Assembly (NCBI GenBank): GCA_016932095.1
Contig: JAFGDN010000039.1
Location: 1-37,656 of the forward strand
Source of the DNA: Sedimentisphaerales bacterium
GTDB lineage: Bacteria > Planctomycetota > Phycisphaerae > Sedimentisphaerales > Anaerobacaceae
Reading direction: 5' to 3'
DNA: 37,656 nucleotides
Below are positions 46 through 17,685 of the stretch, piece by piece. Position 1 is the first letter of the stretch. The number at the start of each line of letters is the position of its first letter. The translations under genes and the position numbers were made by a program. A model generated the notes under the pieces. That model did no database searches, had not been told where the DNA came from, and saw only the letters and a program-made list of their open reading frames with translations.

Positions 46-117
46 GTCGTTATTTAATAAATAGTTACGAATTTCACAGAAGGCTTAGAAGTAATTTTTG
101 TAAAGGAGATAAATAAA

Positions 118-531: not shown

Positions 532-537
532 TCATAC

Positions 538-690: not shown

Positions 691-708
691 GAAAAAGGAG
701 TGAGAAAA

Positions 709-1323: not shown

Positions 1324-1332
1324 AACCCCAAA

Positions 1333-1365
1333 TCCCCGAACCCCCGGCGGTTCGGGGGTTTTTCT
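1333..1365 (+). terminator. Rho-independent terminator after the AP2/HNH gene
   Basis: CCCCGAAC (1334-1341) pairs with GTTCGGGG (1350-1357) around an 8-nt loop, followed by a T-rich run. It starts 10 bases after the stop codon. Confidence 0.85.
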
Positions 1366-2302: not shown

Positions 2303-2485
2303 CCTCCCGCCGCCAGAATTTTATAAAACCTTATTATCCCCCTTTCCCAGCCCGCCGTTGAATTAGGCGAACAGCAAACCTTCGCCCTTATGGCCAAACC
2401 CGGCCAATACAAAGGCAGAACATACGCGGATTTTGCAAAAGAGATTCGCGCAAAGACCGAACTCGATGCAAAATTCGTGATTTAA
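2301..2485 (+). pseudogene. Relic gene tail A (aldolase-end plus VELG...FVI segment)
   Basis: Directly after the regulator stop, this stretch matches about 80 bases around the end of the class II aldolase gene at 22.5 kb. It can be read as LTSRRQNFIKPYY against the aldolase end LTPRRQNFIKRYY. A second coding remnant follows: in another frame it reads VELGEQQTFALMAKPGQY, continues for about 25 residues and ends ...DAKFVI and a stop. This matches relic B at 17.4-17.5 kb residue by residue, including a shared 25-nt identity (2386-2410). Relative to the aldolase copy, one base is missing near 2335. The parent protein of the VELG...FVI segment is not recognised. Confidence 0.6.
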
Positions 2486-2529
2486 TCCTAATTTGCCTGC
2501 CTGCTTTTGGCTGAATTATTGTTAAGGGG

Positions 2530-4548
2530 TTAAATATGTAGAGCAGCAAGGATTGGTCTGATACGTGCTTTTACTAATTCTGGAGCAAATTTTTGTGTCT
2601 CTTTTAATCTTTGACTCCAATATTCGGCTTCCTTTTCATAATCTTGCTTGTGATCGCCTTTAAGCAACCTTTGTATTGCACTAACCGTATCTCCACATAA
2701 TGAAGAATAAATAACACAACCAAAAAGGTGTTTTTTCTTTTCTGGTTCCGTTGCTTTCTCTAATTCAAGAGCATAAAAATGTGGTAAGTTATAAGCCCAT
2801 TTTTCCTGATATCTGCTTTCTATTTCATTTAAAGCATCGAATATAAGCTGCAATACATAAGGTTGTGATTTGCTTAGTGCTGCTTCTCGCCAGTTAGAAT
2901 CATTGATTGCTTTCCATATTACATCCAGACTAATTTCTTCTATATAGGTCATATTCTTAAGATAACTCGCGATTAACAATTGATCTCCATAATGCGAATT
3001 TGTGAATTTCATTACCATATTTTCGAAATCAGCAGGAATAATGAGTTTTTCTATACCAGCGACAAAAACATTAATCATTTCCTTAGTTTTGTCGTCTTCT
3101 ACGTAAGGAAGCCATTTTTTAGCAGTATCTATAATAGAATTTTCAAAAGAATATACTTTCTTAGAATCATCTATGACTTTCGGAGGAAATACATTCAGGA
3201 TTGTGCCGCTTAACGCATGTTCAATTTTTATATGGTCTTCTTTAGTCATAGAACTTGGTTTTAATAAATCCAAATTATTTCCGAGCATAGCTTGAAGAGA
3301 TATAGAAAACATTGAATTTGTATTGAGCGTTAATAATCTTAACGATGATGGTTTCATCGCCGGAGATGCAATTTGCCAAATTCTTGAAGATAATGTCAAT
3401 TCTGGAAGAAACGTTTGATTTCTTAATCGTTTGACTTCTGCTTTTTTAGAAGTAAAGAGATTGCATATCTGAACAGCAAGCCACCAAGCTTGTGAGGCGA
3501 TTATTTCACCATTCTTAAATGGCAATCGAGCTTCTAAATGGCAACAGTAATGCCTCGCTATTTCACAAAATATTCTCCATGCCTGAGTCCATTCAAGGTC
3601 TTCCTCTTCATTGTTAGGTATATGTATTACTTCTACGATCTCATGCCATAATTTTGCGTGATTATCTTCCGGCACTAAATCTGGTTTGGATATAAAGTAT
3701 GCACAGACATGATATCTCGGCAGTGGAATCGAGAATGAATCTGCCCAGGCCCAGAGAATTTTCCAGATATCATCGAGTGTGCTATGTTTGGCTTGCCATT
3801 TATCAATTAAATTAATAATAGATAATTCCCCCCTCAAGGGCAAATGGCCTAATCTTAAAAAATACTTATTTAAGGCGGCTTCTATATCGATAGATTCATC
3901 AATGATTTTATCTATAACACTTAAGATATTTTCCTTCTGTTCCGATGCTTCCCATACTCCGGGTGTTACAGAATCTACGGAGGGAATTGTTGGCCTTATA
4001 ATTTTTGTAAGATATTCACTAACCCCGTCAACATAATTTCCATGAAGACATTGCTTTACAGCCGCATAATTACAATACCAATCTTCATTTAATGCATCAT
4101 ATATTGCCACTGCTGCCTCTCTCCATTTCTTATCATGTGTTGAAAGTAGTGGCTCTCCTAAAGCTTTAAGTATAGTCCTGCTATTTGGCGTTAAGATAGG
4201 TATTTCTTTATCTTCCAGATTAGAGAAATAGTCAAAAGACGCTTTTCTTATGTCAATATTTGTTGCGAAAAACAATTCTGTCAAGTTCACTATATTCCCT
4301 TTAGGAGGTGTTCTTTGTGTCAAATAAAAAAACAAAGGACCTGCGGGGCCGGAAATTCTATTGGGATGATTTTTGTTATTTAAAATCGGCGGCACTTCTT
4401 CGAAAGTTTTATCAGGGTTTAACGATTCATATATTTTGTTCTTCTGTAGAATTGTAAGAGTTCTACCATCTACTATTTTTGAGTGTTTAGTAGCAATGGT
4501 CATCAGATATTTTTGGGCTTGCTTGATTTCTTCTTTAGTATGCGACAT
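2530..4548 (-). CDS. Unknown helical protein of the PIN/phosphoesterase operon (672 aa)
   Basis: No family was recognised. The product is predicted to be mostly alpha-helical, with no signal peptide, no clear membrane segment and no obvious nucleotide-binding motif. It is rich in Trp, Leu and charged residues (for example DDIWKILWAWADSF and WREAAVAIYDALNEDWY), giving the look of a helical-repeat scaffold. It is the last of three genes transcribed leftwards. Its start overlaps the end of the TPR-PIN gene by 14 bases (4535-4548), so translation is probably coupled and the proteins probably act together. The coding sequence is AT-rich like the rest of the operon and unlike the secretion genes further right, which suggests horizontal arrival. 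A role as regulator or adaptor for the PIN effector is inference only. Confidence 0.85.
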   Translation of the reverse strand: MSHTKEEIKQAQKYLMTIATKHSKIVDGRTLTILQKNKIYESLNPDKTFEEVPPILNNKNHPNRISGPAGPLFFYLTQRTPPKGNIVNLTELFFATNIDIRKASFDYFSNLEDKEIPILTPNSRTILKALGEPLLSTHDKKWREAAVAIYDALNEDWYCNYAAVKQCLHGNYVDGVSEYLTKIIRPTIPSVDSVTPGVWEASEQKENILSVIDKIIDESIDIEAALNKYFLRLGHLPLRGELSIINLIDKWQAKHSTLDDIWKILWAWADSFSIPLPRYHVCAYFISKPDLVPEDNHAKLWHEIVEVIHIPNNEEEDLEWTQAWRIFCEIARHYCCHLEARLPFKNGEIIASQAWWLAVQICNLFTSKKAEVKRLRNQTFLPELTLSSRIWQIASPAMKPSSLRLLTLNTNSMFSISLQAMLGNNLDLLKPSSMTKEDHIKIEHALSGTILNVFPPKVIDDSKKVYSFENSIIDTAKKWLPYVEDDKTKEMINVFVAGIEKLIIPADFENMVMKFTNSHYGDQLLIASYLKNMTYIEEISLDVIWKAINDSNWREAALSKSQPYVLQLIFDALNEIESRYQEKWAYNLPHFYALELEKATEPEKKKHLFGCVIYSSLCGDTVSAIQRLLKGDHKQDYEKEAEYWSQRLKETQKFAPELVKARIRPILAALHI

Positions 4549-7500
4549 ATCTATCTATTACCTCTGCAACAGTTTTAAAGTATTCTTTTTCATTCATGTT
4601 TAAATTCTCTGCGATTATCTGCAATGCCTTATTGGCCCGAGAAGTATCTTTGATATTGAAAATAAGAATCAAAAAATAATCGATTATTACTCTGGACAGA
4701 AATTCAGGCAGTATAACGCCTTGATTTCTATTCTTTGGCATTGATGGATAAAATTCTTCGATAACCCATTCTGTTAATTTTTTTGCATTATCCTCAGTAA
4801 ATTCCATATCCGCCCAGACGCCGACCAAAAATTCTGTGACTATATTAGTCCATTTAGAATAAAGTCTGATTGACATAGATTCTTTTTGAGTTGTATTTTC
4901 AGGCCCTCCAAAAAGGCCGGGGTCTCTCATGCAATCATGTAAATATAATGCTACTTCTCGTAAATCTTGTCCGGGAGGATTAACTGAATATTCTTTTGCA
5001 AGGCATAAGAGCATATCTACACTTGGAATAAAAAACCGATATCGCCATCGCATCAACTTCAAAAAAGCTTCAGTAATCATAGTTTCATTCAAAAACTTTT
5101 CTTTTTCAAATGCCTTCAAAAGACAATCGGTACTAAATATTTCGCCTTTAAATTTATCATCGTTCAATGCAATTGTTTGCATTACCCTTTCATCAATTAA
5201 TAGATTTAAGTTTTTAATTTTAGCCAAATGATAAGAATCCATTGAAATATCTAACTCATATTTTTTATTTCCATAAGCTGGTGCAAGTTTCTTAAAATCA
5301 TTTATCTTGTTCCTGAGTTCATCGTTCCAGCTTTGGATTTGTTCTTGATGATCTATAGTTGTGAGGTCAGCATCAAGAGCCCTTTTTGATTCACGATTAA
5401 TGCTAACTTTAAATGAATCCTTTAAAGCATCATAAATATTAAAGTTTATCAACGTTTTAAGCGTAGAGAGTTCGATGAGTATTTGTTGAGAATATTGTAA
5501 TGATGGATGTTTATCATCAACACCGCTTCCTTTGGCTGCGATCCTAAGGAGTTCGGCATTCTTCGACTTAGTTATTTTTCCATTATCAGACAATACCTTA
5601 CAAACATCTATAAGCCGGTAATAATGTTCTTTCGTATCGTCAGTATATTCATGTACGTACGGATATGATTTGTTGCCAGTCGTATCCGACTTCTCCAATA
5701 CTGAAATGCTTCCTGAATCTATATCATGCTTTATTAATTTAGTGGACTTTATATGTGAAAGCTGATGAAATTCCAGACTGCTTGCATCGGCGATTAGATG
5801 AGGGACATATCTGGTAGAAATGTAGATTTTGCCAAAATAGTCATTTGTCTTTTCCAACAAATTTAGGCGATATAAAGTTATTATTGAAGACAAATCAATT
5901 ACTACTTCACTTCCCTTTGTTGGTATTTCTAATGGCTCCAAACTCCGCCTACCATTTATTTCTCTCGGATGAAATCCATTAGTTGAATATATTGTATAGG
6001 ATGCACGAGAAACGATATCATCGAACAATATAATGGGCTGAGTCCGTATGGCCCAGCCCATAAGTGTTGCATGATTAAGTAGATTGTCTGCTGTCAGCCA
6101 TGGGAATTTGCCTTGTAAGATATTCTTGCATATCATCTCCGTTCTTTCAGTCCATTGTTTATGATGTTGAAGCAGGTCATCTAAGGTCTTTGTTTGAATT
6201 ATTTCAGCGGGCGCTTTCCCTGCGGCTTGTAATTCTAATGCTCTGACAAAAGCTTCATGTGCTGCCGTTTCCTGATTGGCTGCATAGCCAAGATTCATAT
6301 AAATCATCAGAAATCCAGGATTATCCCAAAAAGCATCTTTGTAATTATTAATAAATTTAAATCCTTCCTGAGGCTGATGCTTTATTTGATATAGTTGGGC
6401 AACTGCAACGATTGCTTCTACAGGCGGCTTATCTCGATTGCACAAGGATTTGTATATCTCAATTGCATCATCTACTCTACCTTGTTTTGCCACGCAGACG
6501 GCATAGTTTATCCCATAGGGCATATTACCTTTGTCAATTTCCCAAAGTTTTTTTAAATGTGGTTCCGCACCCTTATAGTCGTTTGCCTTAAGATAAAGCT
6601 GGGCCACCTTTACTCTCGTAATTTTATCTGAAGGTGTAGCGTCAAGAATTGTCTCAAAAGCTAAGATTGCCTTATCGATAAAGCCAGCTCTAAATGCTGC
6701 CTCACCGAGAACTTTATACATTTCATAACTAGGAAACTTATCGATCGCCTTTGAAAAATACGTCAGTCCATCCTTATAATTATTTTCTGAAAATAGACAA
6801 TATGAGTATACCTGTAACCATTGTGGATTATCTTCATTTCTGTGCTTCTCTAAAATATCCTTTGCTGATGGGATATTTCCTTGTCTTAATTGAATTGCCG
6901 CTGCAATAACGTTAGTTAGCGTATCATTCTTTCCAAGCAACTCTTCGGTTATCACATTGGCATCCTTCATCGCAACAGCATCGATTTGTTGCGAAATCTG
7001 AAAAAGCATACCACATAATTCTATTTTTTCCGAAGGGGAACGAACTTTTATTTTTAGTTGCTTACCTTTTTCGAATGCTTCTTTTGCATTGTCGCAGAGT
7101 TCCGCCTCTACAACTAACGCTAGCATATCTGCTTCAAGATTGTTTTTGTATTCCTCATAGATGCGACGTGTAATATCTGTATCAGGTGGTAGCAGTTTGC
7201 TAAGAACTAATCTAATATATTCCAAAGAAATGGGCCTGTATTTCCTAAGGATTGATGCGAGTGTCTTCAGAGATTCTGCTTCACCAAGAATGGTAATGGC
7301 AGTAATCGTCTTAAGTAATGCTTTATACTCAATAGGATTTGATATTCTATCATCAGCTTTAATATGTTCAACTATCGGCGAAAGCGATTCTACAACTTCT
7401 TTCAGGATATTACGGTCTGATGGAGTAGCTTGACCAAAAGAAATGAACTTTTGTTTATTGGTATCAAGATATTTTTTTAATAGCGCACTGGCATATTCTA

Positions 7501-7726
7501 AAAGGCAGTTGTGCCACGTTACAACATCTGCATTTATTTTGGCCCATTCGATTATCTCACGGGCTTTGTCTTTTTTATCACATAGCGAATAAATAGCCAC
7601 AGCTTTATCACACCATATTTCGTGAAATGCCTTTTCTGCGAGCAAAGGCAGAGCTTCATCTACATCTTTTTTCTTCAGAATGCCTATGAGTTGGATTCTG
7701 AATTCCTGTTCAGCTATGTCTATCAT
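4535..7726 (-). CDS. TPR protein with C-terminal PIN-like nuclease domain (1063 aa)
   Basis: The N-terminal half is helical with TPR-like repeats, clearest at about residues 300-500 (YKVLGEAAFRAGFIDKAILA, VKVAQLYLKANDYKGAEPHL). From about 605 to 910 the sequence resembles a PIN-like ribonuclease: VVIDLSSIITLYRL provides the first acidic residue (D611), and IFSTDCLLKAFEKEK (D867) followed by LMRWRYRFFIPSVDMLLCLA matches the distal acidic motif and closing helices. A further helical region reaches the C-terminus. This order fits the TPR-GreAB-C-PIN type of conflict-system protein (Pfam PIN-TPR-GreABC); I did not clearly see the GreA/B-C module. It is the middle gene of the operon, overlapping the phosphoesterase gene by ATGA (7723-7726) and the downstream gene by 14 bases. 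Likely role: RNA cleavage on sensing infection or stress, inferred from the family. Confidence 0.8.
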   Translation of the reverse strand: MIDIAEQEFRIQLIGILKKKDVDEALPLLAEKAFHEIWCDKAVAIYSLCDKKDKAREIIEWAKINADVVTWHNCLLEYASALLKKYLDTNKQKFISFGQATPSDRNILKEVVESLSPIVEHIKADDRISNPIEYKALLKTITAITILGEAESLKTLASILRKYRPISLEYIRLVLSKLLPPDTDITRRIYEEYKNNLEADMLALVVEAELCDNAKEAFEKGKQLKIKVRSPSEKIELCGMLFQISQQIDAVAMKDANVITEELLGKNDTLTNVIAAAIQLRQGNIPSAKDILEKHRNEDNPQWLQVYSYCLFSENNYKDGLTYFSKAIDKFPSYEMYKVLGEAAFRAGFIDKAILAFETILDATPSDKITRVKVAQLYLKANDYKGAEPHLKKLWEIDKGNMPYGINYAVCVAKQGRVDDAIEIYKSLCNRDKPPVEAIVAVAQLYQIKHQPQEGFKFINNYKDAFWDNPGFLMIYMNLGYAANQETAAHEAFVRALELQAAGKAPAEIIQTKTLDDLLQHHKQWTERTEMICKNILQGKFPWLTADNLLNHATLMGWAIRTQPIILFDDIVSRASYTIYSTNGFHPREINGRRSLEPLEIPTKGSEVVIDLSSIITLYRLNLLEKTNDYFGKIYISTRYVPHLIADASSLEFHQLSHIKSTKLIKHDIDSGSISVLEKSDTTGNKSYPYVHEYTDDTKEHYYRLIDVCKVLSDNGKITKSKNAELLRIAAKGSGVDDKHPSLQYSQQILIELSTLKTLINFNIYDALKDSFKVSINRESKRALDADLTTIDHQEQIQSWNDELRNKINDFKKLAPAYGNKKYELDISMDSYHLAKIKNLNLLIDERVMQTIALNDDKFKGEIFSTDCLLKAFEKEKFLNETMITEAFLKLMRWRYRFFIPSVDMLLCLAKEYSVNPPGQDLREVALYLHDCMRDPGLFGGPENTTQKESMSIRLYSKWTNIVTEFLVGVWADMEFTEDNAKKLTEWVIEEFYPSMPKNRNQGVILPEFLSRVIIDYFLILIFNIKDTSRANKALQIIAENLNMNEKEYFKTVAEVIDRYVAY

Positions 7727-8994
7727 GGATTATCTCTCATTAAATTAATTTCCAGAACACATTGATCAATTTGCTTGCTCCATCTATGATGAATTTTATC
7801 TTTTGTTGCTAAATACCAATTCTTATCTTTATTCCATAAAATTTCAGCACCATTATAATCTCTCTTACGGATACATTCCCAAAGATGGTCTGCCAGATTT
7901 TTAGCCCGCTCACCTGATGATTCATCTTGTGCGCTTGTATTGATAAATTCAGACTCTTCCTTTTCTCTTTTAAAAGGCCATTTCTTTTGAAAACCTTCTG
8001 ATTCTATCCATGAAAGAGAACCTTCACTCCAGTAAAAAGGTTTCTGTTCAAAACATTGCTCCATTCGATTTATCTTTATTAATTGAAAACTATTGCCATA
8101 TTTTATCCCATTAAAAATTGTTCCAATGCCTGAAGTATAAGCCCACCATCCCGTTGAATCAAAAGGTTCGGGTTTTTGGTGATCGTGACCTGTTAAAATA
8201 AGATGCGACATCGTTGCTATACGATGCCACGTGGCTGGTTGTAGGGAATTATAGGAATGGCGTTCAGTATCAGCCATACGTTCCCGCGGGCAATGCATTA
8301 ATACTACGCACACTTCTTCATAATTTGGTCTTCGTGAAATTAATCTCTCTCCCTCCATCCAATCGAGCGGTTTATTTCCTATTATAACTACTTGTTTTGA
8401 TTTATCGTCCCAATCATGAAAGTAGGGACTATAGCAAACAAAACGCATTAAACCGGATGTTAATCGCATGCCAAATAAAAATGATGTTTGTAAATTGTTT
8501 TCTGTGTAATGGTATTTGCTTACACCGATATTTTCAAGAAACTCAATATATTTCTGAAATGGTTTTTCGAATTCAACCTGTCTCTTAATAGTAATCAGAT
8601 GATCAATTTCTGCTTCCGTTTTTGGCTGTTGAATTGTTGCTGCACAATCACGGTCAAGGTCATGATTTCCAGGACATATGAATAAGTTGTTTTTATCGAT
8701 TGACAACAAATCCATCAAATCGACAAGCCATTTAGCTCCTTCAATATAACCAGCAGTCTCATTTTTATGAGAAATATCTCCTGTTATACACAAACAAGTT
8801 GGCCACCAATCTTTTGATAGATTACTTAATGTTTTATTAAATTGATCAAAAACAATCTTTTTGTCTCGAAGTTCGCTATCTGAAATTGGTTTGCCAAAAT
8901 GCAAATCACTGATATGAAGAATAACATTACCAGCATGATTAGCTTTAGGAGGTCCTTTTGCTTTTCTTTTCGGCTTTGACTCCTTCTTAGCCAT
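7723..8994 (-). CDS. Calcineurin-like metallophosphoesterase (423 aa)
   Basis: This cytoplasmic two-metal phosphoesterase keeps all the family motifs: D30-x-H32 (ISDLHFG), GD72-73 (ITGDIS), GNHD109-112 (CPGNHDLDRD), H234 (LMHCP) and GHDH269-272. The catalytic domain covers about residues 22-310. A C-terminal extension of about 110 residues with a helical segment (AKNLADHLWECIRKRDYNGA) may bind the partner proteins. The first 20 residues are very Lys-rich. It is the first gene of the minus-strand operon; ATG at 8994 has AGGA about 9 bases upstream and a plausible promoter 50-80 bases away. The substrate cannot be read from sequence: nucleic acid, cyclic nucleotide or nucleotide are all possible. 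The operon context argues for a conflict-system effector or regulator rather than a housekeeping role. Confidence 0.9.
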   Translation of the reverse strand: MAKKESKPKRKAKGPPKANHAGNVILHISDLHFGKPISDSELRDKKIVFDQFNKTLSNLSKDWWPTCLCITGDISHKNETAGYIEGAKWLVDLMDLLSIDKNNLFICPGNHDLDRDCAATIQQPKTEAEIDHLITIKRQVEFEKPFQKYIEFLENIGVSKYHYTENNLQTSFLFGMRLTSGLMRFVCYSPYFHDWDDKSKQVVIIGNKPLDWMEGERLISRRPNYEEVCVVLMHCPRERMADTERHSYNSLQPATWHRIATMSHLILTGHDHQKPEPFDSTGWWAYTSGIGTIFNGIKYGNSFQLIKINRMEQCFEQKPFYWSEGSLSWIESEGFQKKWPFKREKEESEFINTSAQDESSGERAKNLADHLWECIRKRDYNGAEILWNKDKNWYLATKDKIHHRWSKQIDQCVLEINLMRDNP

Positions 8995-9044
8995 TTTATT
9001 TCCTAATACTGATAATGTCCAAATCCTACCCCTCCATTTTCTCC

Positions 9045-9073
9045 ATTTTCCCCCAACCGCCCTTAAGTGTCAA
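9045..9073 (-). promoter_or_regulatory. Candidate promoter of the phosphoesterase/TPR-PIN operon
   Basis: On the minus strand a perfect TTGACA (9068-9073) is followed after 17 bases by GAAAAT (9045-9050), four of six matches to TATAAT. It sits 50 bases upstream of the first start codon. Confidence 0.5.
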
Positions 9074-9170
9074 GCAAAGATAGCAGACAGCGATCGGTTA
9101 GTGAAAAAAACGTGAAATACGCACAAAAAATCCGAATTTGACCCAAAACTTGCGATTTTGGTCACTTTTC

Positions 9171-9273
9171 GTTAAAAACGCGCTCCTTTTCTCTCATTTT
9201 GTGTCATTTCTCGTTAAAATCATACCCGTAGCCAACTTTAACCGCCTTCTTTGTGGCGGGCGATTATCTCGGC
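9171..9273 (+). repeat. Left arm of 103-bp inverted repeat
   Basis: This arm is the reverse complement of 10043-10145 with a single mismatch in 103 bases. Weaker similarity continues outward for about 10-20 bases (GTCACTTTTCG against GCGACTTTTTG). The arms enclose 769 bp with a palindrome, tRNA-Arg and the 20-bp repeat array. Short open frames that run through both arms give nearly the same peptide only because of the repeat and are not believed to be genes. Confidence 0.95.
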
Positions 9274-9293
9274 TGCGTTGCGCAACGCAGCCG
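9270..9293. repeat. Perfect 24-bp palindrome
   Basis: CGGCTGCGTTGC is immediately followed by its reverse complement GCAACGCAGCCG. It lies exactly at the inner end of the left 103-bp arm and is absent from the right arm, where the sequence diverges. It could be a protein binding site or the scar of an insertion. No T run follows on either side, so it is not a typical terminator. Confidence 0.9.
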
Positions 9294-9462
9294 GAACCCC
9301 TTTTTTCAATCAGCCGGCGGCAAAAAGTCGCCTGCCGCTGGCACTGCTGGTTGGAATTTCTTGCCGGTATCCTTGACTCGGCACTGCTTAGAATTGTGCC
9401 CTTCAATGCTAAGCGTTGCGCTGCAAATCACCTCTAACAGGGGCTGAGTTTCAGGTTATGAA

Positions 9463-9536
9463 TACGCCCGGGCGGATTCGAACCGTCGACCCCCGGTTTA
9501 GGAAACCGGTGCTCTATCCTTCTGAGCTACGGGCGC
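9463..9536 (-). tRNA. tRNA-Arg (anticodon CCT)
   Basis: Read on the minus strand, the 74-nt sequence begins GCGCCCGTAGCTCAG and ends with the T-arm GGTTCGAATCC and acceptor strand CGGGCGT plus discriminator A. The acceptor stem pairs over 7 bp with one terminal G-U. The anticodon stem CCGGT/ACCGG encloses the loop TTCCTAA, giving anticodon CCT (complement at 9500-9502) and therefore Arg codon AGG. CCA is not encoded. It lies inside the inverted-repeat element between the palindrome and the tandem array. tRNA genes are common integration sites, but no duplicated tRNA 3' end was seen in this window. Confidence 0.95.
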
Positions 9537-9552
9537 GAAAGTGAGTTTGTAC

Positions 9553-9565
9553 GGTGTTGAGACAA
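9553..9565 (+). repeat. Inverted 13-mer bounding the tandem array (left)
   Basis: GGTGTTGAGACAA is the exact reverse complement of TTGTCTCAACACC at 9782-9794, near the far end of the 20-bp array. The pair brackets ten of the twelve array units, so the whole array could form the loop of a hairpin in single-stranded DNA or RNA. Confidence 0.7.
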
Positions 9566-9580
9566 GGAGCTAACCTGATG

Positions 9581-9820
9581 TTTTTCCCAATGGCTAACTA
9601 TTTTTCCCAATGGCTAACTGTTTATCTCAACGGCTAACTGTTTATGTCAACGGCTAACTGTTTATGTCAACGGCTAACTGTTTATCTCAACGGCTAACTA
9701 TTTTTCCCAATGGCTAACTGTTTATCTCAACGGCTAACTGTTTATGTCAACGGCTAACTGTTTATCTCAACGGCTAACTATTTGTCTCAACACCTAGCTA
9801 TTTGTCCCAACGGCTTCAAA
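9581..9820 (+). repeat. Tandem array of twelve 20-bp units
   Basis: Twelve head-to-tail units of exactly 20 bp follow the pattern TTTATCTCAACGGCTAACTG; the last two are degenerate. Three main variants can be named by their first half: TTTTTCCCAA (a), TTTATCTCAA (b) and TTTATGTCAA (c). The order is a-a-b-c-c-b-a-b-c-b and then two divergent units. The block a-b-c-c-b is followed by a-b-c-b, so a multi-unit segment was duplicated and one unit gained or lost. There are no spacers, so this is not a CRISPR. A 20-bp period is close to two helical turns and would suit iteron-like protein binding, which is inference. Confidence 0.95.
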
Positions 9821-10042
9821 CAACCAACGAGGCATTATACGCAGGTCCGAACAGGACGACAAGAACGAAATCAGTGAGCCGGCATACACACCAAACGCAC
9901 CCTCAAAAACAGTCAAAAAATGAAGGATTTTAAATGGTTTGTAAGTTATTGCCCAATAAGGATTTAAGAAGACCTCGCAAAAAAAACCAATTTTTGGAAA
10001 AATCTCCATTGCAAGAAGACGGAAGATAGAACATTCGACACG

Positions 10043-10145
10043 GCCGAGATAATCGCCCGCCACAAAGAAGTCGGTTAAAGTTGGCTACGGGTATGATTTT
10101 AACGAGAAATGACACAAAATGAGAGAAAAGGAGCGCGTTTTTAAC
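10043..10145 (-). repeat. Right arm of 103-bp inverted repeat
   Basis: Reverse complement of the arm at 9171-9273 with one mismatch. Between the array and this arm (9821-10042) no gene was recognised. Confidence 0.95.
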
Positions 10146-10241
10146 AAAAAGTCGCTAAAAACGCGCAGTTTTTGACTACTTTTGATACTTTTTTTGAATT
10201 CGATATATCAGCGGAATAGAAGGGTTGTTTTTTAAGCTAAG

Positions 10242-10296
10242 TGGGTCCCCTGTTGCAAAACCAATGGAGTAACTTCCCGGGGAGCTGCGCTACGCT
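10242..10296 (+). repeat. 55-bp direct repeat, copy 1
   Basis: The unit beginning TGGGTCCCCTGTTGC recurs at 10355-10409 with one difference in 55 bases, 113 bp further on. It contains the self-complementary core TCCCGGGGA and the GC-rich tail GAGCTGCGCTACGCT. It encodes nothing convincing. Confidence 0.9.
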
Positions 10297-10354
10297 ACGA
10301 AAGGCGGGCAAGTTTCGAATTAAGAAAACGGGGCTTGTTTTTGGGGAAAATAAA

Positions 10355-10409
10355 TGGGTCCCCTGTTGCAAAAGCAATGGAGTAACTTCCCGGGGAGCTG
10401 CGCTACGCT
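10355..10409 (+). repeat. 55-bp direct repeat, copy 2
   Basis: Second copy of the 55-bp unit. It ends 13 bases before the stop codon of the Res remnant (10423), so it may mark the edge of the restriction-modification locus. Confidence 0.9.
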
Positions 10410-10422
10410 CCGAGGGGAGATT

Positions 10423-11098
10423 TTAATCGCGGATTATAACTTTTTCGAGATTGCTTACAGGAGCGACAAATTTGACATCGGGGAAATTCTCAAAGTGTTT
10501 CCTGCCACAGAGGATTTTATGCCGTTCCTCCGGCGAAAGGGACGGGTCATTGATATTGTCCGTTCCCTTGGTTTCCGCAACGAAATAAACCTTCTTATCA
10601 TTCTCATAAACTAATGCCCAGTCGGGATGATATTTCCCGATGGGCGTATCAATAAAAAACCACCCCGGCAGCTTGAAATAAAACTTTATATCGTCCCTCT
10701 GATCGCACGCCTCGGCAAACTCCCTTTCGACGATGCTATCAACCTCTATATAGTCATAGACCGTCTTTTCCGGCTTCTTTACTTCATACAGGTCATTGAG
10801 ATAGCTATAAAGTTCTTCATCTTTGAAAAGCATCTGGTCATAAAATGCACCGGCGATTTTCTCGTATTTAACGCCATCGACAATCATTTCATTCAAAACG
10901 GTATTTATCTCCGAGCAAACCTTATCCATAAACTGCTGCGGATTAACGAAGACATCATCTACTTTGCCCGATTCGATTAAAATCCGGCAAATCGTATCTC
11001 GTGTCAGGCGTGTCTTGCTCTGTATATAGGAAAGAACGTCGGGGATTATATTAAATTCCCACTCAGTCGCCGCGGTGGCTGGATTGAGGTTTGCCGAT
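10423..11098 (-). pseudogene. C-terminal remnant of type III restriction endonuclease (Res)
   Basis: About 220 residues in one frame correspond to the C-terminal endonuclease part of a type III Res subunit. Seen on the minus strand: NLNPATAATEWEFNIIPDVL, SYIQSKTRLTRDTICRILIE, a helical middle, and then the PD-(D/E)XK core GKYHPDWALVYE...VYFVAETKG, followed by EERHKILCGRKHFE and VKFVAPVSNLEKVIIRD at the natural stop. An in-frame stop lies just upstream, and the whole N-terminal helicase/translocase part (usually about 750 residues) is missing. An internal ATG at 10929 could give a 168-aa peptide, but it has no clear start signal. The missing part is replaced by the five-gene cassette whose last gene ends at 11102. 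The Mod start survives on the far side of the cassette. Confidence 0.85.
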
Positions 11099-11101
11099 GC
11101 T

Positions 11102-12175
11102 CTACTTTATCAATGCGTGACGTATTATTAATACAGGGTCAACGATAAAGACATCTGTTTCGTCGAAATAACCGCATATCATCTTTTTTATACATATGCC
11201 TGTTCTTATAGATAACATAAGAGCATAAAGAGACACTTGAATCAATGCGTCTGTTTCTGTTATGGCTTCTGGTTTATAATCCCAAATTCCTATTTTCTCA
11301 TCTTCCTCATATCTGATTAAATCTATATGCCCGGTCAAAGTATTATCAGTATTGAAAAATGCTTTATAACCGTTTAGTTCATAAGCTTCTAACCACAAAG
11401 GAACTTCACAAGCTATCGTGCAAGGATCATTTAATAAAAAGTATTTTTGTAAATTTTCATGTCTCGCACTGAATTCCTTAAATGATTTACTTTTTTTTGC
11501 GAGATGAATTAGGTCATGTTCCTTTCGATGTTCTATCGAATTATTTATACTAAAACAATTCGATGTTATTGATGAAGCTCGAAAAATATTTTTAAATAAA
11601 TGGTTAGGACAATCGGTGAACAATAGCTGAAGGTACGATGACAGTTTTATAGGGATTCGTTGGATTTTATCTAAAGCTACGCGGTATCTATAAAAAAAGG
11701 GCTTATGACTAAATGTATGTGTTCTGATAGTATCATATTTCAGCGTTTTATAAGGGATAAATGCACCGTATTCTGACAAAGTAAAAAATTCGCGTTCTAT
11801 GTTTTCGCTCAAGGAAAGAACATAATTTAAATCCCGTGAATCAGTGTTATTAGAATGTATTGGCCATAAACTTTCTTTGATAGTATCTCTTGCGCCCTCA
11901 ATTTTGCTTGAGTCAATAACAATACATTTGAAAAGAAAGTCATTCGGAAATTCATTGCAATTTAATAAATCACATGCTCTTGGAGATAATTCATAAACTG
12001 CAATATCGAAATTTTCTTTCAGGCAGGAAACAACCTTTGCAAATTGATTCAAATCTTGTTCGCTGTTTAAATCATAAGGCATAATGAACATATTCGGTTT
12101 GTCCATCGTGCCTTTAAGCAGCATTTTAAACGACTCGATAACTTTCGGTAATTCAGCGTAAACACTTATTTTCAT
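11102..12175 (-). CDS. PD-(D/E)XK nuclease, Cas4/RecB-like (357 aa)
   Basis: The C-terminal third carries the nuclease core: E257 (IACEVPLWLEA), D285 in TGHIDLIRY, D299-Y-K301 in IGIWDYKP, and the RecB-family motif QVSLYALML starting at Q313. This order is typical of Cas4/RecB/PDDEXK_1-type nucleases acting on DNA ends or single strands. The first 240 residues are unrecognised. They begin MKISVYAELPKVIESFKMLL and may be a recognition or adaptor region; no cysteine cluster like that of iron-sulfur Cas4 enzymes is obvious. It is the last gene of the cassette, starting 8 bases after the deoxyribosyltransferase stop and abutting the broken Res gene. A role as DNA-degrading effector or as a processing enzyme is inferred from domain and place. 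Confidence 0.8.
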   Translation of the reverse strand: MKISVYAELPKVIESFKMLLKGTMDKPNMFIMPYDLNSEQDLNQFAKVVSCLKENFDIAVYELSPRACDLLNCNEFPNDFLFKCIVIDSSKIEGARDTIKESLWPIHSNNTDSRDLNYVLSLSENIEREFFTLSEYGAFIPYKTLKYDTIRTHTFSHKPFFYRYRVALDKIQRIPIKLSSYLQLLFTDCPNHLFKNIFRASSITSNCFSINNSIEHRKEHDLIHLAKKSKSFKEFSARHENLQKYFLLNDPCTIACEVPLWLEAYELNGYKAFFNTDNTLTGHIDLIRYEEDEKIGIWDYKPEAITETDALIQVSLYALMLSIRTGICIKKMICGYFDETDVFIVDPVLIIRHALIK

Positions 12176-12183
12176 AACAGAAA

Positions 12184-12696
12184 CTATACTGTTTCTGTTC
12201 TTATCACACCAGATTTCTTTTCTTCATTATCATCTTTACAAGTATCTTGTCCGCTGTATGACTTAGCCCAATCAATTAATTCTTCGATACTTACAAAAAT
12301 CCTTTCGAGTGGAATATCTATCATTGGGTTATTACCAATAGCCAAGAGTTGCCTTGGGCCAGTTTTAAGCCCATAACATTGTTTGCCTTTTGCGTATGCA
12401 AAACCAAGTTCAAAAGCAGCTCCTTCATCCACAGTTCTACCATCAAGAATAATTAATACCAAATCGCATTCATTCATAGCTCGCACATCAACATCAAATA
12501 CTTTTTCTTTTGCAAGTTCAGCAGGCATTCCTGCCTTAATCATATATACTAAAAGCCCTCCATCTTCCTGAGGCAGATAAACTTCAAAAAAAGGATTGAG
12601 TAACTGTTTAAGGTTATGGTTAAAAGTCCTCTCGGCTAAACTGAATAAAGGGCCTGCGAGATACATTCTGTTTTTTTTGTGATTATCTTTTAGCAT
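12184..12696 (-). CDS. Nucleoside 2-deoxyribosyltransferase family protein (170 aa)
   Basis: The family swaps the base on a 2'-deoxyribonucleoside through a covalent deoxyribosyl-enzyme intermediate; some relatives only hydrolyse the bond. Signatures are the N-terminal MYLAGPLFSLAERTF (residues 11-25) and the central VDVRAMNECDLVLIILDG followed by RTVDEGAAFELGFAYAKGK, where E96 matches the nucleophile. The length fits a single-domain member plus a short charged tail. The ATG at 12696 lies 2 bases after the SIR2-kinase stop without its own ribosome site, so coupled translation is likely. An internal ATG at 12666 would start right at the conserved MYLAGP. In this cassette its neighbours make a 7-deazaguanine base and carry a deoxynucleoside-kinase-like domain, so it may attach deoxyribose to that base. 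That is inference. Confidence 0.88.
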   Translation of the reverse strand: MLKDNHKKNRMYLAGPLFSLAERTFNHNLKQLLNPFFEVYLPQEDGGLLVYMIKAGMPAELAKEKVFDVDVRAMNECDLVLIILDGRTVDEGAAFELGFAYAKGKQCYGLKTGPRQLLAIGNNPMIDIPLERIFVSIEELIDWAKSYSGQDTCKDDNEEKKSGVIRTETV

Positions 12697-12698
12697 TG

Positions 12699-14429
12699 TT
12701 ATTTTAATCCATTATTTTGAATAAACTTTAATCGATCGTGAATTTTGGCCGGATTATATGGTTCCATATGGATGATCCGTGAAATTCTTTTCATGATTTC
12801 GTAAAATGATTGAAACCTACAGTCGATTTTTGTCATACCTGGCATTTTATATACGAGGTCTAACATATCTTGCAACTCAGCCAATCCATTTTTGTCATAT
12901 TTCTTTGCTGAACGTTTCACTCTAATCTCGAGATGCTCTGGATCGTCCCACAAATATATAACATGCCCCTCTTTTATTTGCTCCTTATCGTTGGGAGAAA
13001 TTGTATCCAATAGATACTGCGCTTTCTCCTGCCACCTACTCTCAGGCGTGAAGCAAATCGGATCCAAAGGGCATCGGTCAGAAATTGATATGCCAAGCTT
13101 CGTGTCGATTAGATCTTGATTTTTTTGCTTAAATTGTGTTGCGATCCATTTATCAACTCTTTTCCTTCGTTCTTCTTCGGTTTCTAATGTTTTCCAGTTG
13201 TTAGCTAAGTCAGTCAATCTATCCTCATGCCATTCATCATGTGTAATCAAGTTTCTAAGATGAGATACACATGTGCTTTTACCAACTCCAATGGAACCAA
13301 CAATATAGAAATAGAAACTAATATCAATTTTATTCTCTGTTGCAAAATGAATAAGGGGATTATTATTCAATTGTTTCTTAGTGCTATCGTACCCGTCGTG
13401 GATTAGTTTCGCTATAGAATTCAACTCTGCATTATTGAGAAAAAGGGTCCTCAGATTATAGGTTTCAAAATTGGCTGCCTCTATGGACTTTATGTCCGCA
13501 ACACTTGGTTTATTTTTGTCCTGTTCATAATAACTAATGTAATAATGATAATTACCGGGCGCAACCATAGCGCTTTGCTTTAGTAAATTCTTCAGAATGC
13601 TATCTTTTAATGACAACCCTATGAATAAGCATGTATTTGAGGATAAAACATGCAATAATGAATTGTATTGACCACTGGTTAATTCTAACATTCTATTTGC
13701 AAATTCACTCTCAGAGAGTACCATTTCTTGGCCTTTTTCCTCCATTGGATTACGAGGTATATATCCATTAGGATGATATATCACAGCCGATTTTCTACGA
13801 GGTAATGTTTGAAGGGTTGTTACAGTCTCGGACTGACGATAATCCAACCCTTTGTTCTGAGAGTCACAGGAAATCGCATTTTCAATTACATCGTCGAAAT
13901 TATAAGTAACTGTCAAAGGCATATATTGAATAATTGGCAGAAAGCTATTTAGATAAGTGTGATTACTTAATATTTGATCTGGGGGCACTGCATTGCGGTA
14001 TAATTTATCGCGTATTATTTGCCTCCATTCTCCATATATACTAGCGTCTAATTTAGGAGAATGATAATCAGAGGGAGAGGCACTGATATATTTCCTGCTT
14101 TTAAAACACTCAAATAATCTCTGTGTCGTAATTGTTTCCTCTGGTCCAGCCCCACAAAGCAATTTTGCTATTGTTTCTCGGCTTTCCTTTGCAAGAAAGT
14201 CATCGATAGTTTCTGAAAGCGGTCTTCCTAATAGTTTTATTCCTTGGACTCTATCATCTGCTGCAATTTCATCATTTAATTTGTTCCAACTAGGAATACC
14301 GACTTGTTGTGTAAGGCCTGTGCCAAATATCAGTACAAGTCTTCCAGCTTCAAGTTGCTTTCTGAGATGTACAACGGGTCGTGTATAGTTTTGTAATAAA
14401 TCTTTATCAACAGGTGTCCAGTTATTCAT
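12699..14429 (-). CDS. SIR2-like domain fused to deoxynucleoside-kinase-like P-loop domain
   Basis: With the start placed at 14429 the product has 576 residues. The N-terminal part (about 20-330) is SIR2-like: FGTGLTQQVGIPSWNKL (35-51), TYNFDDVIENAI (175-186), IYHPNGYIP with H219, and CLFIGLSLKD (267-276). Bacterial SIR2 domains of this type are NAD-consuming defence effectors. The C-terminal part (about 370-560) has a P-loop GSIGVGKST (378-386), ISDRCPLDP resembling the DRS motif of deoxynucleoside kinases, and VIYLWDDPEHLEIRVKRSAK like their lid region. The first glycine motif is GTG rather than the usual GAG. Start choice: ATG 14429 has GAGGA about 9 bases upstream and overlaps the previous gene by 8 bases (ATGAATAA); ATGs at 14435 and 14468 are alternatives. 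The fusion suggests NAD hydrolysis controlled by, or coupled to, a nucleoside or nucleotide (inference). Confidence 0.85.
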   Translation of the reverse strand: MNNWTPVDKDLLQNYTRPVVHLRKQLEAGRLVLIFGTGLTQQVGIPSWNKLNDEIAADDRVQGIKLLGRPLSETIDDFLAKESRETIAKLLCGAGPEETITTQRLFECFKSRKYISASPSDYHSPKLDASIYGEWRQIIRDKLYRNAVPPDQILSNHTYLNSFLPIIQYMPLTVTYNFDDVIENAISCDSQNKGLDYRQSETVTTLQTLPRRKSAVIYHPNGYIPRNPMEEKGQEMVLSESEFANRMLELTSGQYNSLLHVLSSNTCLFIGLSLKDSILKNLLKQSAMVAPGNYHYYISYYEQDKNKPSVADIKSIEAANFETYNLRTLFLNNAELNSIAKLIHDGYDSTKKQLNNNPLIHFATENKIDISFYFYIVGSIGVGKSTCVSHLRNLITHDEWHEDRLTDLANNWKTLETEEERRKRVDKWIATQFKQKNQDLIDTKLGISISDRCPLDPICFTPESRWQEKAQYLLDTISPNDKEQIKEGHVIYLWDDPEHLEIRVKRSAKKYDKNGLAELQDMLDLVYKMPGMTKIDCRFQSFYEIMKRISRIIHMEPYNPAKIHDRLKFIQNNGLK

Positions 14430-15645
14430 TTTCATCTTCCTCAAAAAGAAAAGTCTGTCCTCTTGCATCTTTTCCTTTATCTGCGGTATACCAATCCTTA
14501 GGAGCTATTGAATTCTTATGCATAGGAGAACGTCCTGCCATTGCATCAATATACTTGGCAAAAATGCTTAGAAATCTTTGGTCATAACTATAATCAACAT
14601 GATTGACATTCCAAAGACCACTTTTGCGTATGGCCTCATTAGGACTATAATTTCCAAGCCAGTTATCACTTTGTTTATCTACCGGACCAGTAGGGCCAGA
14701 CAATAATCCTATCGAGTTTTTTTCAATAAATGCCCTGTCGCTTGCTGGACCAGCAATATCAGGTACATTTAACCATAATATCGACATATTACCGATATAT
14801 TCAGAAACCTTTTTTTCGAGTTCTAATTCTGCTTCTTGGATTTCCTTGGAAGCCAATTCGCTCTTACCCCAACTCGGTATAGAAATCTTTCCAGCCGACT
14901 TTTTTATTATCGCATCTCCAACATGAAGACGGAAAACAGAAGCTCGATGATTACCGCCTCCATCTTCCGTTCCTCGGTGTGTTTTTAAACGATTCCATAA
15001 AGTAGCTTTAGAACCTTTGCTTACCATGTGTGTCCCAACACGAACAACACGATATTCATTTTTATTATTTGCCCTAAATTCCCCCGGCTCAAAGAAAAAA
15101 TAAACTCCTCTCTCCGGCCAAGATAGCTTCCCATTGCAATTCTTAAATAGGTGTTTGCCTCCTAATGATTTCTCCAAATCATTAAGAAGACCGTAAAACT
15201 CTTCAAGATGTCTGTTTCTTGTCGTATTGATATTATTTTGCGTCAGCCACTGTAACTGTTTACCTATTCCCAATCCTTCCATCGGGACTTGAACTTTATT
15301 TCCTCGTTTAAGTAAAAGAGGCGTTAGTCCTTGTCTATAGCGAGTACCTGCGATGAAGGTTATTTCATCATTGGCTTTTGTGTGCGTTTTTATTTCTTCG
15401 AACACTTTTTCAGTCCACTTGTGTCTATCTTCCCTCGGCATTGTATTTAGCGTTTTTTCATATGGTTCAATTAACTTGTTAGGGGCGATGAGGCCATATT
15501 TTGCGGAAAGAATATACCATCGGTCAAAATTCTTATTGGCGAATTCTTTTGCCTTTTTGAATAAAGGCGAAAGATAAATATCCCCCGCTTTCTTTTTGTG
15601 GGTATCTTTTAAACTGACACATGCTACAAGACATATCCTTGCCAT
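14422..15645 (-). CDS. DUF6884 domain fused to GIY-YIG-like nuclease domain (407 aa)
   Basis: Residues 1-135 match the DUF6884 pattern: ICLVACVSLKD, DIYLSPLFKKAKEFA, WYILSAKYGLI and a closing PMEGLGIGKQL. DUF6884 proteins are often found near queuosine/7-deazaguanine genes, which fits the QueC gene just upstream. Residues about 178-345 resemble a GIY-YIG nuclease: RGVYFFFEPGEFR, YRVVRVGTH, LWNRLKTHRG (R219), GGGNHRASVFRLHVGDA, possible metal-site E in the 271-277 helix, and later N336. The catalytic assignment is tentative because the second motif reads RVG, not YIG. It starts at ATG 15645, 49 bases after queC, and overlaps the SIR2 gene by 8 bases. Likely role: a nuclease guided by, or checking for, a deazaguanine-type base (inference). 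Confidence 0.8.
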   Translation of the reverse strand: MARICLVACVSLKDTHKKKAGDIYLSPLFKKAKEFANKNFDRWYILSAKYGLIAPNKLIEPYEKTLNTMPREDRHKWTEKVFEEIKTHTKANDEITFIAGTRYRQGLTPLLLKRGNKVQVPMEGLGIGKQLQWLTQNNINTTRNRHLEEFYGLLNDLEKSLGGKHLFKNCNGKLSWPERGVYFFFEPGEFRANNKNEYRVVRVGTHMVSKGSKATLWNRLKTHRGTEDGGGNHRASVFRLHVGDAIIKKSAGKISIPSWGKSELASKEIQEAELELEKKVSEYIGNMSILWLNVPDIAGPASDRAFIEKNSIGLLSGPTGPVDKQSDNWLGNYSPNEAIRKSGLWNVNHVDYSYDQRFLSIFAKYIDAMAGRSPMHKNSIAPKDWYTADKGKDARGQTFLFEEDENE

Positions 15646-15694
15646 TTATGGTTTCCTGCTATTTGTACTACCCAAAAGTAGCCAAAAGATTAAC

Positions 15695-16327
15695 TTATTT
15701 TGTTATATTTTCCCACGCATACTTGTGAAGAATACAGGCATCGCATTTACCGCATGGCACAAATCCGTTCTCTGTAGTTTTTGGTCTATAGCAACTCCAT
15801 GTATCACCTTGACGAATTCCTAAGCGATAGGCCTCCTTGGCAATTTCGGGTTTGGTTAGAGAAATAAGTGGTGCAATAATCTTCGGGCCTTTAGGAATTG
15901 CTAATTGCATCATCTTTTTAAACTGTTCTAAGAATTCTGGTCGGCAGTCAGGGTATCCGGAATAATCAATTGAATTTATGCCTATCCACACTTCAGAAGC
16001 ACCTATTCCGGCAGCTTCTGCACAACCTAAAACCAAAAAAAGAGCATTACGTCCTGGGAGAAAAGCAGTTGAGACATCTTTACCTATTTCATTAATTTTG
16101 CGATCTTTGGGTATTGTTCGGTTGGGCTTATCCCAAGATACGTTTAATACTTTTCGGCTTACATTAAATCTATCGCATAACTTTATAGCATATTCAAGTT
16201 CCGCTCGACTTTTTTGCCCATAGTCAATTCCAAGACTTATGATTTCCCGGCCCTTTTCTAGCGCAAGCAATAAACATGTCGTCGAATCTAAACCACCGCT
16301 ATGTAATATAACTGCTTTAGTGCTCAC
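15695..16327 (-). CDS. queC: QueC, 7-cyano-7-deazaguanine (preQ0) synthase
   Basis: QueC turns 7-carboxy-7-deazaguanine, ammonia and ATP into preQ0. The 210-aa protein looks intact: ATP-pyrophosphatase loop SGGLDSTT (10-17), FLPGRNALFL (89-98), the signature IDYSGYPDCRPEFLEQF (120-136), and the zinc site C179, C192, C195, C198 (TWSCYRP, PCGKCDAC). The GTG start at 16327 gives MSTKAVILHSGG; no strong ribosome site is seen. QueD, QueE and GTP cyclohydrolase are not in the window, so substrate would come from host genes elsewhere. QueC-like enzymes also occur in immune systems (QatC in QatABCD; Cap9 in type IV CBASS), where the product is used other than in tRNA. As first gene of this cassette, with a DUF6884 gene following on the same strand, a defence or DNA-modification role is more likely than ordinary queuosine synthesis, but the latter cannot be excluded. 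Confidence 0.9.
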   Translation of the reverse strand: MSTKAVILHSGGLDSTTCLLLALEKGREIISLGIDYGQKSRAELEYAIKLCDRFNVSRKVLNVSWDKPNRTIPKDRKINEIGKDVSTAFLPGRNALFLVLGCAEAAGIGASEVWIGINSIDYSGYPDCRPEFLEQFKKMMQLAIPKGPKIIAPLISLTKPEIAKEAYRLGIRQGDTWSCYRPKTTENGFVPCGKCDACILHKYAWENITK

Positions 16328-16492
16328 AAATCGTTTTTCTCATCATACAATAATTCCGGTTTTTTCTTATTTTTGAATTCTACTCAAATAAAGCTTTTTT
16401 TCAACGGCTAAAGTTTTCACCCTGTTTCTATCTTCAGTTCAACGTGCTTCAAATTCCGCGAGAATCTGTAAAATCTGTGGTTTCAGTAACTG

Positions 16493-16969
16493 TCATGTCA
16501 GGAGTCCTTCTTCATCTTTGATTCCTGCGCGAAGTTCGCAATCGTCTTTTTCCTCTTTGAAGCGGTCGGGATAAATGAAGGAGTCGTTGCCCGTGTTATA
16601 AGGCGGGTCGATATAAATCATCTTGATTTTATTCTGATACGTCTTTTGCAGGATTTTGAGGACTTCTAAGTTATCGCCTTCGATGAATATATTCTGCGTT
16701 TTATCGAAATCGACCGATTCTTTTCGTATGGGTTTCAGGGTTGCTGTTGTTGTTTCCTGAATATGCCTGAAGCACTCATTTTTCCCCGCCCAAGACAAGC
16801 CGTATCGTTCATTATTAGTATCGAGGTCTTCGCCTAATGCCTGTTTTAGCTTATCGGGATTGACCTTTCCTTCTGCGAATACTTGCGGGAATTGCTGTTT
16901 GAGCAGTTCCGCCAGTTCCTTTTGCGGGCTTAACGATTTCCCATCCATTTTCACAGGGTGTTTTGTCAT
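16493..16969 (-). pseudogene. N-terminal remnant of type III DNA methyltransferase (Mod)
   Basis: The first 158 residues of a type III adenine methyltransferase remain. Visible are LSWAGKNECFRHIQ, QNIFIEGDNLEVLKILQKTY and the catalytic motif MIYIDPPYNTGNDSFIYPDR (118-137), followed by AGIKDEEG, after which the frame ends in TGA. The target-recognition region and the rest of the catalytic domain (over 400 residues in full enzymes) are missing, so it should be inactive. ATG 16969 has AGGA about 8 bases upstream. The Res C-terminus at 10.4-11.1 kb is on the same strand and in the order expected for a mod-res operon, so both are best read as the ends of one operon split by the cassette. The 165 bases between this break and queC hold no gene. 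Confidence 0.88.
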
Positions 16970-17006
16970 AACAATCCTTTACTTAACGGTTAAAGATAAC
17001 CTTTAT

Positions 17007-17035: not shown

Positions 17036-17685
17036 GGGCGGTTAATTGCCGATTTGCGATTGCCAATTCCGAATGAGATTGCTTCGGCCTGCGACCTCGC
17101 AATGACGTTAAGCGAATCTCACGCGGGCAATCAGAATAACCCCCCAATAAAGTTGGAGGGCTAAACAAAATCGGACGATTCGGACGGGATGAACGGTAAC
17201 CGCAAGGCGGGGAAAAGGGTGTTCAGATAAAGGATTTGGCAAAATCGGGAAGGACATCGCATATATGGCGTTTGACGACCCCACCGCGCCGGGTGGGGGC
17301 TATATACTCCGCAAAGCGGTAAAGGGGTAAAGCAACGAATACTGGGTCCCCGCCTGCGCGGGGACAGGCGGGCGGATAAGGAAATTTCAGATTAAATTAC
17401 AAAGTCAGAATCAAATTTAGTCCTGGCGAGGATTTGGTCGGCGAATTGCTCATAAGTGAGGTCCGGCTGGTATTGGCCGGGTTTGGCCATAAGGGTGAAG
17501 GGGGCGTGTTTGCCTAATTCAACGGCGGTGAATCCATCTTAAACTCGCCTGTTTTCTGTCTTGACGACGGGCAGGGGTATAAAACCATTCAAATCACAGG
17601 TATTTCAGCAGAAATAGTCCATAAACAGATGATTTCCTGAATAATCGTTGTAACTTCACAAACCCTGCTGTTACTGATTTTCCAT
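17036..17685. other. Intergenic region with short repeat-like sequences and relic tail B
   Basis: No gene was seen. The stretch holds GAGATTGCTTCGG...CTCGCAATGAC (about 17078-17106), of a kind often dispersed in bacterial genomes. Around 17345-17373 GTCCCCGCCTGCGCGGGGAC and the overlapping CCGCCTG/CAGGCGG give two competing hairpins in the style of REP elements. Relic gene tail B lies at 17392-17530. It marks the boundary between the AT-rich accessory region and the GC-richer right half. Confidence 0.5.
17392..17530 (-). pseudogene. Relic gene tail B (VELG...FVI segment)
   Basis: On the minus strand the frame reads VELGKHAPFTLMAKPGQY, then TYEQFADQILARTKFDSDFVI and a TAA. It is homologous to relic A at 2.3-2.5 kb, ends at the equivalent stop codon, and shares a 25-nt identity (17470-17494). 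An in-frame stop lies a few codons upstream, so it cannot be expressed as it stands. The parent protein is unknown. Confidence 0.6.

Follow-up and report, generated by a model that had tools for sequence, protein, structure and literature searches.

A 12-unit minisatellite in the probable 5' leader of a planctomycete pre-tRNA-Arg(CCU)

The window analyzed here, meaning the whole stretch of DNA under study, comprises 37,656 nucleotides of a Sedimentisphaerales draft genome (2.95 Mb, 94 contigs; below G000). For the type II secretion ATPase of this planctomycete, 13 relatives were found, all in Planctomycetota MAGs (best identity 77%), including MAGs of Phycisphaerales, Phycisphaerae and Sedimentisphaerales. 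In a segment of about 1 kb inside the window, a tRNA gene, a lone inverted repeat unit, a tandem repeat array and a promoter-like site follow each other in this order, all on the minus strand, and are enclosed by a long inverted repeat. The features are as follows.

9145 to 9273, left arm of the long inverted repeat that encloses tRNA, array and promoter-like site (94% over 130 nt with 10043-10172)
9463 to 9536, minus strand, tRNA-Arg with anticodon CCT (ARAGORN; Rfam RF00005, 62.9 bits, gathering score 29)
9537 to 9827, minus strand, putative pre-tRNA 5' leader of about 291 nt, with its start placed from the sequence about 7 nt past the -10 box
9553 to 9575, minus strand, inverted copy of a unit that includes the 13-mer 9553-9565 and is the proposed arm, on the tRNA side, of a closing stem (inverted-repeat search)
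9580 to 9819, minus strand, repeat array of 12 units; on the tRNA strand, ten units read AGTTAGCCGTTGASATAAAC or AGTTAGCCATTGGGAAAAAY (TRF and unit table)
9782 to 9794, minus strand, outer arm of the 13-mer inverted pair, within decayed unit d (inverted-repeat search and unit table)
9834 to 9862, minus strand, promoter-like TTGTCG-17-TATAAT directed toward the array and the tRNA, -35 at 9862-9857 and -10 at 9839-9834 (consensus scan, 10 of 12)
10043 to 10172, right arm of the long inverted repeat (repeat search), holding a terminator-like hairpin at 10166-10133 on the minus strand

The tandem array is real: TRF reported it at 9579-9815 with a period of 20, 11.9 copies, 88% matches and a score of 320, and the unit table resolved 12 head-to-tail units of 20 bp. 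Read in the frame that starts at 9580, their order is a' a b c c b a b c b d e, in agreement with the variant order given by the sequence-only reading. The description of the array as exact holds within variants, with four identical b units and three identical c units, but not beyond them, as a' and a have different first bases and units d (ATTTGTCTCAACACCTAGCT) and e (ATTTGTCCCAACGGCTTCAA) are decayed. The units can be read in blocks, a / a-b-c-c-b / a-b-c-b, a pattern that would fit block duplication. With near-identical units longer than 10 bp arranged head to tail, the array is a minisatellite in the sequence sense, the only class to which we assign it.

The array appears to be private to this genome. 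When the b or c unit was searched with up to three mismatches, all eight matches in the 2.95-Mb assembly fell inside the array, so that the ordinary satellite DNA scattered through the genome, which was to speak against a special array, did not turn up. Among 161 genomes of the order, only G000 carried it; a two-unit match with up to two mismatches was absent from the 160 others, the three congeners (G001, G002, and G003) were without the array, and no second strain turned up. No homologue was found among plasmids or phages (blastn), in viral contigs (one exact pattern) or in a genome contig collection (one exact three-unit pattern), sets that may omit records very near the window's genome. 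Neither did TRF detect a comparable array at 29 tRNA loci of relatives (L014 to L042) or 30 of the own genome (L074 to L103): the largest other array was three copies of 31 bp (L024), and short periods of 7-16 nt adjoin some of the own tRNAs. In Rfam, the gathering score was reached in the whole window by the tRNA alone, leaving the array with no known RNA family, and relaxing the search to E values up to 1 over 9100-10220 added only a sub-threshold match on the strand opposite the tRNA.

The tRNA-Arg(CCT) gene starts 43 bp from the array and is the sole CCT tRNA among 43 ARAGORN tRNAs of the own-genome loci examined. Because it lies on the minus strand, its 5' side faces the array. The promoter-like site 9862-9834 sits at the array's far edge, with a score of 12.4 by a sigma70-like matrix that gives incomplete promoter calls. 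The sequence-only reading had missed both features, as well as the long arms. In the window, sites scoring at least 12.3, a cut-off chosen after this site had been seen, number one on the minus strand (the site itself) and three on the plus strand. None of 1,000 shuffles of the 65-nt flank reached its score; of 300 dinucleotide shuffles of the 420 nt preceding the tRNA, 3 did. Closer to the tRNA, the best site at 3-60 nt scored 4.4; a TACAAA 9 nt from the gene scored 3.5 and could still act as a weak promoter. The 297 nt that separate the tRNA from the promoter-like site are mostly filled by the array.

An inverted unit stands between the array and the tRNA. Its 13-mer GGTGTTGAGACAA (9553-9565) and the stretch 9782-9794 are exact reverse complements, as previously claimed, and this match forms the end of a 23-nt inverted pair (9553-9575 and 9772-9794) with 83% complementarity. 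Compared with the 12 registers of the array, the inverted unit matched that of unit d (9772-9794) at 19 of 23 positions and the 11 others at 10 to 16. In the same stretch, d differs from b at four positions, three of which are common to the inverted unit. Either the inverted unit was copied from d, or the pairing with d would have been kept by selection; both origins are compatible with the insertion of a hairpin of which one arm later multiplied. The inverted unit and unit d could thus pair as a stem that closes the leader. The notion that the array folds as a bracketed unit is only partly retained: the 13-mer belongs to a possible closing stem, but the bracket encloses 9566-9781, so that unit e and the larger part of unit d fall outside the loop.

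We consider that the array is part of the transcribed 5' leader of pre-tRNA-Arg(CCU), with a probability of roughly two in three. Of the functions previously listed for the array, a transcribed repeat comes closest to the arrangement found, the array lying between the predicted promoter and the tRNA and on the tRNA strand. RNA polymerase would start at about 9827, from TTGTCG-17-TATAAT, and read leftward through the array into the tRNA. In the RNA, the decayed unit d would pair with the lone inverted unit beside the tRNA, and this stem would close most of the array as a separate domain, thereby leaving the tRNA free to fold. Removal of the leader by RNase P is established for pre-tRNAs generally, and the same cut would release the whole leader here. 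The array probably goes back to a hairpin-forming inverted repeat that inserted between promoter and tRNA, similar to the other leader extras of G000 described below; slippage or unequal exchange would then have expanded one arm of this insert into a minisatellite, as the block pattern suggests. Since such a leader is discarded, no selected function is needed, and the most likely role of the array is none, i.e., a minisatellite tolerated in a discarded leader.

The predicted fold of this leader was strong on one strand, with z = -5.45 against dinucleotide shuffles for the minus-strand RNA 9537-9830 and -0.77 for the plus strand. When the same column permutation was applied to all 12 units, 209 of 500 permuted arrays folded at least as well on the minus strand and 300 of 500 on the plus strand. 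Repetition alone thus explains the strong fold, which we rejected as a sign of a structured RNA.

To place the leader in context, we turned to the same tRNA in relatives. In G001, G002, and G003, tRNA-Arg(CCT) is preceded by TTCAAA-16/17-TATAAT ending 11, 11, and 10 nt from the tRNA, respectively. Among the 29 tRNA-Arg(CCT) loci compared in relatives, these three included, 21 show a site scoring 9.0 or more 10-26 nt from the gene. The long leader is not unique, given that at one locus (L023) a site of 12.1 lies 143 nt away and that seven of the 29 lack both a near site of 9.0 or more and a far site of 12 or more. As the spacer and flanks in G000 could not be aligned with those of the congeners, the comparison does not demonstrate the displacement of one same promoter.

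We also compared the leaders of all tRNAs retrieved (43 in G000, 45 in G001, 46 in G003, and 13 in G002). A leader was called long when the best near site (3-35 nt) scored below 9.5 and a far site (36-330 nt) at least 12. This applied to 5 of 39 tRNAs in G000 (Gly-TCC, Lys-CTT, Asp-GTC, Arg-CCT, and Leu-CAG), 2 of 45 in G001 and 2 of 46 in G003; in shuffled upstream sequences of all four genomes, a far site of at least 12 appeared in 2 of 141. Lys-TTT is absent from the G000 list, yet its far site is printed as 12.0. Gly-TCC is not special to G000, as its leader is also long (61 nt) in G002, and Glu-CTC goes in the opposite direction, with a leader of 19 nt in G000 versus 49 nt in two congeners. 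Promoter calls by this matrix are incomplete, because 20 of 39 tRNAs in G000 lack a strong site by either the near or the far rule (24 of 45 in G001 and 20 of 46 in G003).

Four leaders were aligned with their congener counterparts, and each of them (Ser-GCT, Lys-CTT, Lys-TTT, and Asp-GTC) showed a recognizable common promoter followed by an extra segment in G000 before the tRNA. As evidence for long leaders, such pair alignments weigh more than counts of site scores. For Ser-GCT, G000 and G003 share CACTAAACTAACCTGCTG base for base; beyond this stretch, the leader of G000 exceeds that of G003 by 66 nt and folds as a long hairpin. Two more promoters, judged by site distances without alignment, appear displaced: Leu-CAG (44 versus 11 nt) and Gly-GCC (59 versus 12 and 14 nt), the latter having an equally good near site.

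Among 11 G000 leaders picked by eye, with the lengths of Thr-TGT, Gln-TTG, and Arg-TCT set by hand, five reached a z value of -3 or below (Lys-CTT -3.16, Lys-TTT -3.45, Ser-GCT -3.04, Thr-TGT -4.72, and Gln-TTG -4.60) and six had no unusual fold. Three of the four aligned leaders with an extra segment fold well. None of seven congener leaders reached -3, nor did any of 11 upstream control stretches in G000, while one of seven in the congeners did. The opposite strands of the five gave -1.58, -3.04, -2.34, -5.22, and -2.80, respectively, so RNA and DNA effects are not clearly separated in these folds.

The Lys-CTT insert belongs to a dispersed family found in at least 24 places, a number merged by eye from 30 rows with 40 of 60 candidates scored. 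By eye, two of these places are near a tRNA, the insert itself and one upstream of the Ser-GCT promoter. As this family lies mostly away from tRNAs, the idea of tRNA-specific insertion is weakened. The Ser-CGA leader resembles the Lys-CTT insert by eye and is absent from the family's list. Extra hairpin segments are thus present in tRNA leaders of G000, as judged from these sequences, with no targeting of leaders demonstrated.

Other repeats were observed, some of them beside tRNAs. The tRNA-Gln TTG leaders of G000, G001, and G003 (L103, L203, and L170) carry, at the same place, an inverted-repeat element with short AT-rich repeats in its arms, the sequence of which differs by eye (ATTTTCT-like in G000, TGATTAT-like in G001 and G003). 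Seven G000 contigs (C2, C6, C7, C10, C35, C47, and C70) end 0-3 bases from the end of a tRNA gene and look as if the assembly broke at repeats beside tRNAs. The first 85-120 bases of the window recur in five other own contigs, at base 1 in four of them (C8, C16, C37, and C38) and at the end of C21.

The long arms around the locus are not matched at their length anywhere else in the genome, and short partial matches (25-37 nt) were found in 2 of 60 other genomes. The segment that they enclose, with the tRNA, the array and the promoter-like site, could invert by recombination. Just past the right arm lies a 63-bp direct repeat (10238-10300 and 10351-10413, 95% identical). Farther right, a C-terminal piece of a type III restriction endonuclease (10423-10929, minus strand, 168 aa) and an N-terminal piece of a type III methyltransferase (16493-16969, minus strand, 158 aa) flank a cassette (11102-16327) coding for QueC, DUF6884, SIR2-like and nucleoside deoxyribosyltransferase-like proteins as well as unknown genes. 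From this layout, the cassette apparently replaced the middle of a type III operon. On the other side of the tRNA, a low-GC block (2530-8994, minus strand) of three overlapping genes lies between a response regulator and the tRNA; the genes code for an unknown protein, a TPR protein (sub-threshold PIN-associated matches) and a calcineurin-like phosphoesterase (sub-threshold anti-phage matches). In the three congeners, response regulator genes are directly 3' of tRNA-Arg, whereas here about 7 kb separate them, which suggests that a block was inserted 3' of the tRNA. The tRNA-Arg is not an evident special supply for the low-GC block, since its codon AGG is used 6.7 times per 1,000 in eight genes of the block versus 10.9 in six genes to the right. 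Repeats of 59-75 bp at 2300-2410, 17470-17528, and 22458-22532, mutually inverted, lie near both edges of the low-GC block, and similar stretches occur elsewhere in the genome and genus.

Several other explanations were weighed. It is doubtful, though conceivable, that hairpin repeat elements repeatedly colonize promoter-tRNA gaps as a safe harbor, RNase P discarding the leader, and that some leaders, the 12-unit array first, have become small RNAs with several sites each, produced together with the tRNA and tied to its expression. A functional leader RNA, whose excised array would titrate a regulatory RNA or RNA-binding protein through up to ten similar sites, seems unlikely. Its repeated site on the transcript strand and the identity of the b and c units would suit multivalency, but such identity is equally expected after recent duplication, the unit is private to one genome and hence not conserved, and the array folds no better than its permuted versions. 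For such titration, an excised spacer of a tRNA precursor offers a precedent (PMC7154689).

To a similar degree, we find it improbable that the units act as tandem weak promoters that multiply the start sites of the tRNA. On the tRNA strand they do offer TTGACA or TTGAGA followed after 18 nt by CATAAA or GATAAA, and minus-strand TTGACA-18-CATAAA and TTGACA-18-GATAAA score 9.2 and 9.0. However, these values fall below 9.6, the 90th percentile of the best scores in base-shuffled 400-nt upstream sequences, and well below the 12.4 of the site at the array's edge, and none was retrieved by the consensus scan, which requires T at the last -10 position.

There is a still smaller chance that the array binds a protein as DNA, be it as iterons, a partition site, or the arm sites of a transposase or integrase. 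Units of 20 bp, close to two helical turns, run head to tail without spacers beside a tRNA, in a low-GC block that also holds defence-like genes. Against this, no initiator, partition, integrase or transposase family was found by Pfam in 20 of the 50 listed ORFs (among them 14 of the 18 listed in 1-17000, the other four of which overlap scanned ones), or by PADLOC and NCBIfam in the 10 island ORFs among these 20. The plasmid, phage and viral-contig searches were likewise negative. The earlier suggestion of an iteron, replication or integration signal therefore found no support. Integration at tRNA-Arg was also considered, and none of the 13-mers in 9441-9560 has a second copy in the rest of the window that could be an attachment remnant. 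Least probable of all is a plain, untranscribed minisatellite beside a tRNA with a fortuitous promoter match: private, block-duplicated units in a genome with many other dispersed repeats would be in line with it, but not the position and orientation of a rare promoter match upstream of a tRNA-Arg that has no other good promoter by this matrix.

Returning to the transcribed leader, the locus is a curious case of genome evolution, not a new kind of system. If the reading is true, tRNA leaders are a place where bacterial repeats insert and expand, since processing discards the leader. The candidate loci are Arg-CCT, Lys-CTT, Lys-TTT, Ser-GCT, and Asp-GTC, for which the congeners carry short-leader counterparts. 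The array also illustrates that duplication alone can account for a striking 'higher-order' repeat, including its strong predicted fold. Our literature search, covering mostly the openings of abstracts, retrieved no tandem array in a bacterial tRNA leader, and such a case may exist in print.

Among known systems (rtT, ToxI, iterons, and yeast retroelements were compared at the level of general descriptions), the array resembles the bacterial intergenic minisatellites of the VNTR/MIRU kind in that its units of about 20 bp are arranged head to tail, come in few variants, show block duplications and are restricted to one genome. It is unlike them in its position between a promoter-like site and a tRNA, its one inverted unit and its possible closing stem. 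The rtT repeats of the E. coli tyrT operon are tandem and co-transcribed with a tRNA, as would be the case here, but they are downstream of it and have long units, while the array is upstream with units of 20 nt. In type III toxin-antitoxin systems, a promoter (here predicted) is also followed by a tandem-repeat RNA such as ToxI; the units of these are about 35-40 nt, whereas those of the array are 20 nt and are followed by a tRNA instead of a toxin gene, no family of the ToxN, CptN or TenpN kind being present in the 20 of 50 ORFs scanned. The iterons of plasmid origins share with the array direct repeats of about 20 bp without spacers; unlike at such origins, no initiator gene was found nearby in those 20 ORFs, and the array has a promoter-like site on one side and a tRNA on the other. 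In yeast, retroelements settle upstream of tRNA genes, which is loosely similar to repeats settling in bacterial tRNA leaders. The nearest functional precedent is 3'ETS-leuZ of E. coli, an excised 3' spacer of a tRNA precursor that acts as a sponge for RyhB (PMC7154689). The array differs from it in being on the 5' side, tandem and not conserved, a putative sponge with no assigned target; like it, the array would be a spacer discarded from a pre-tRNA.
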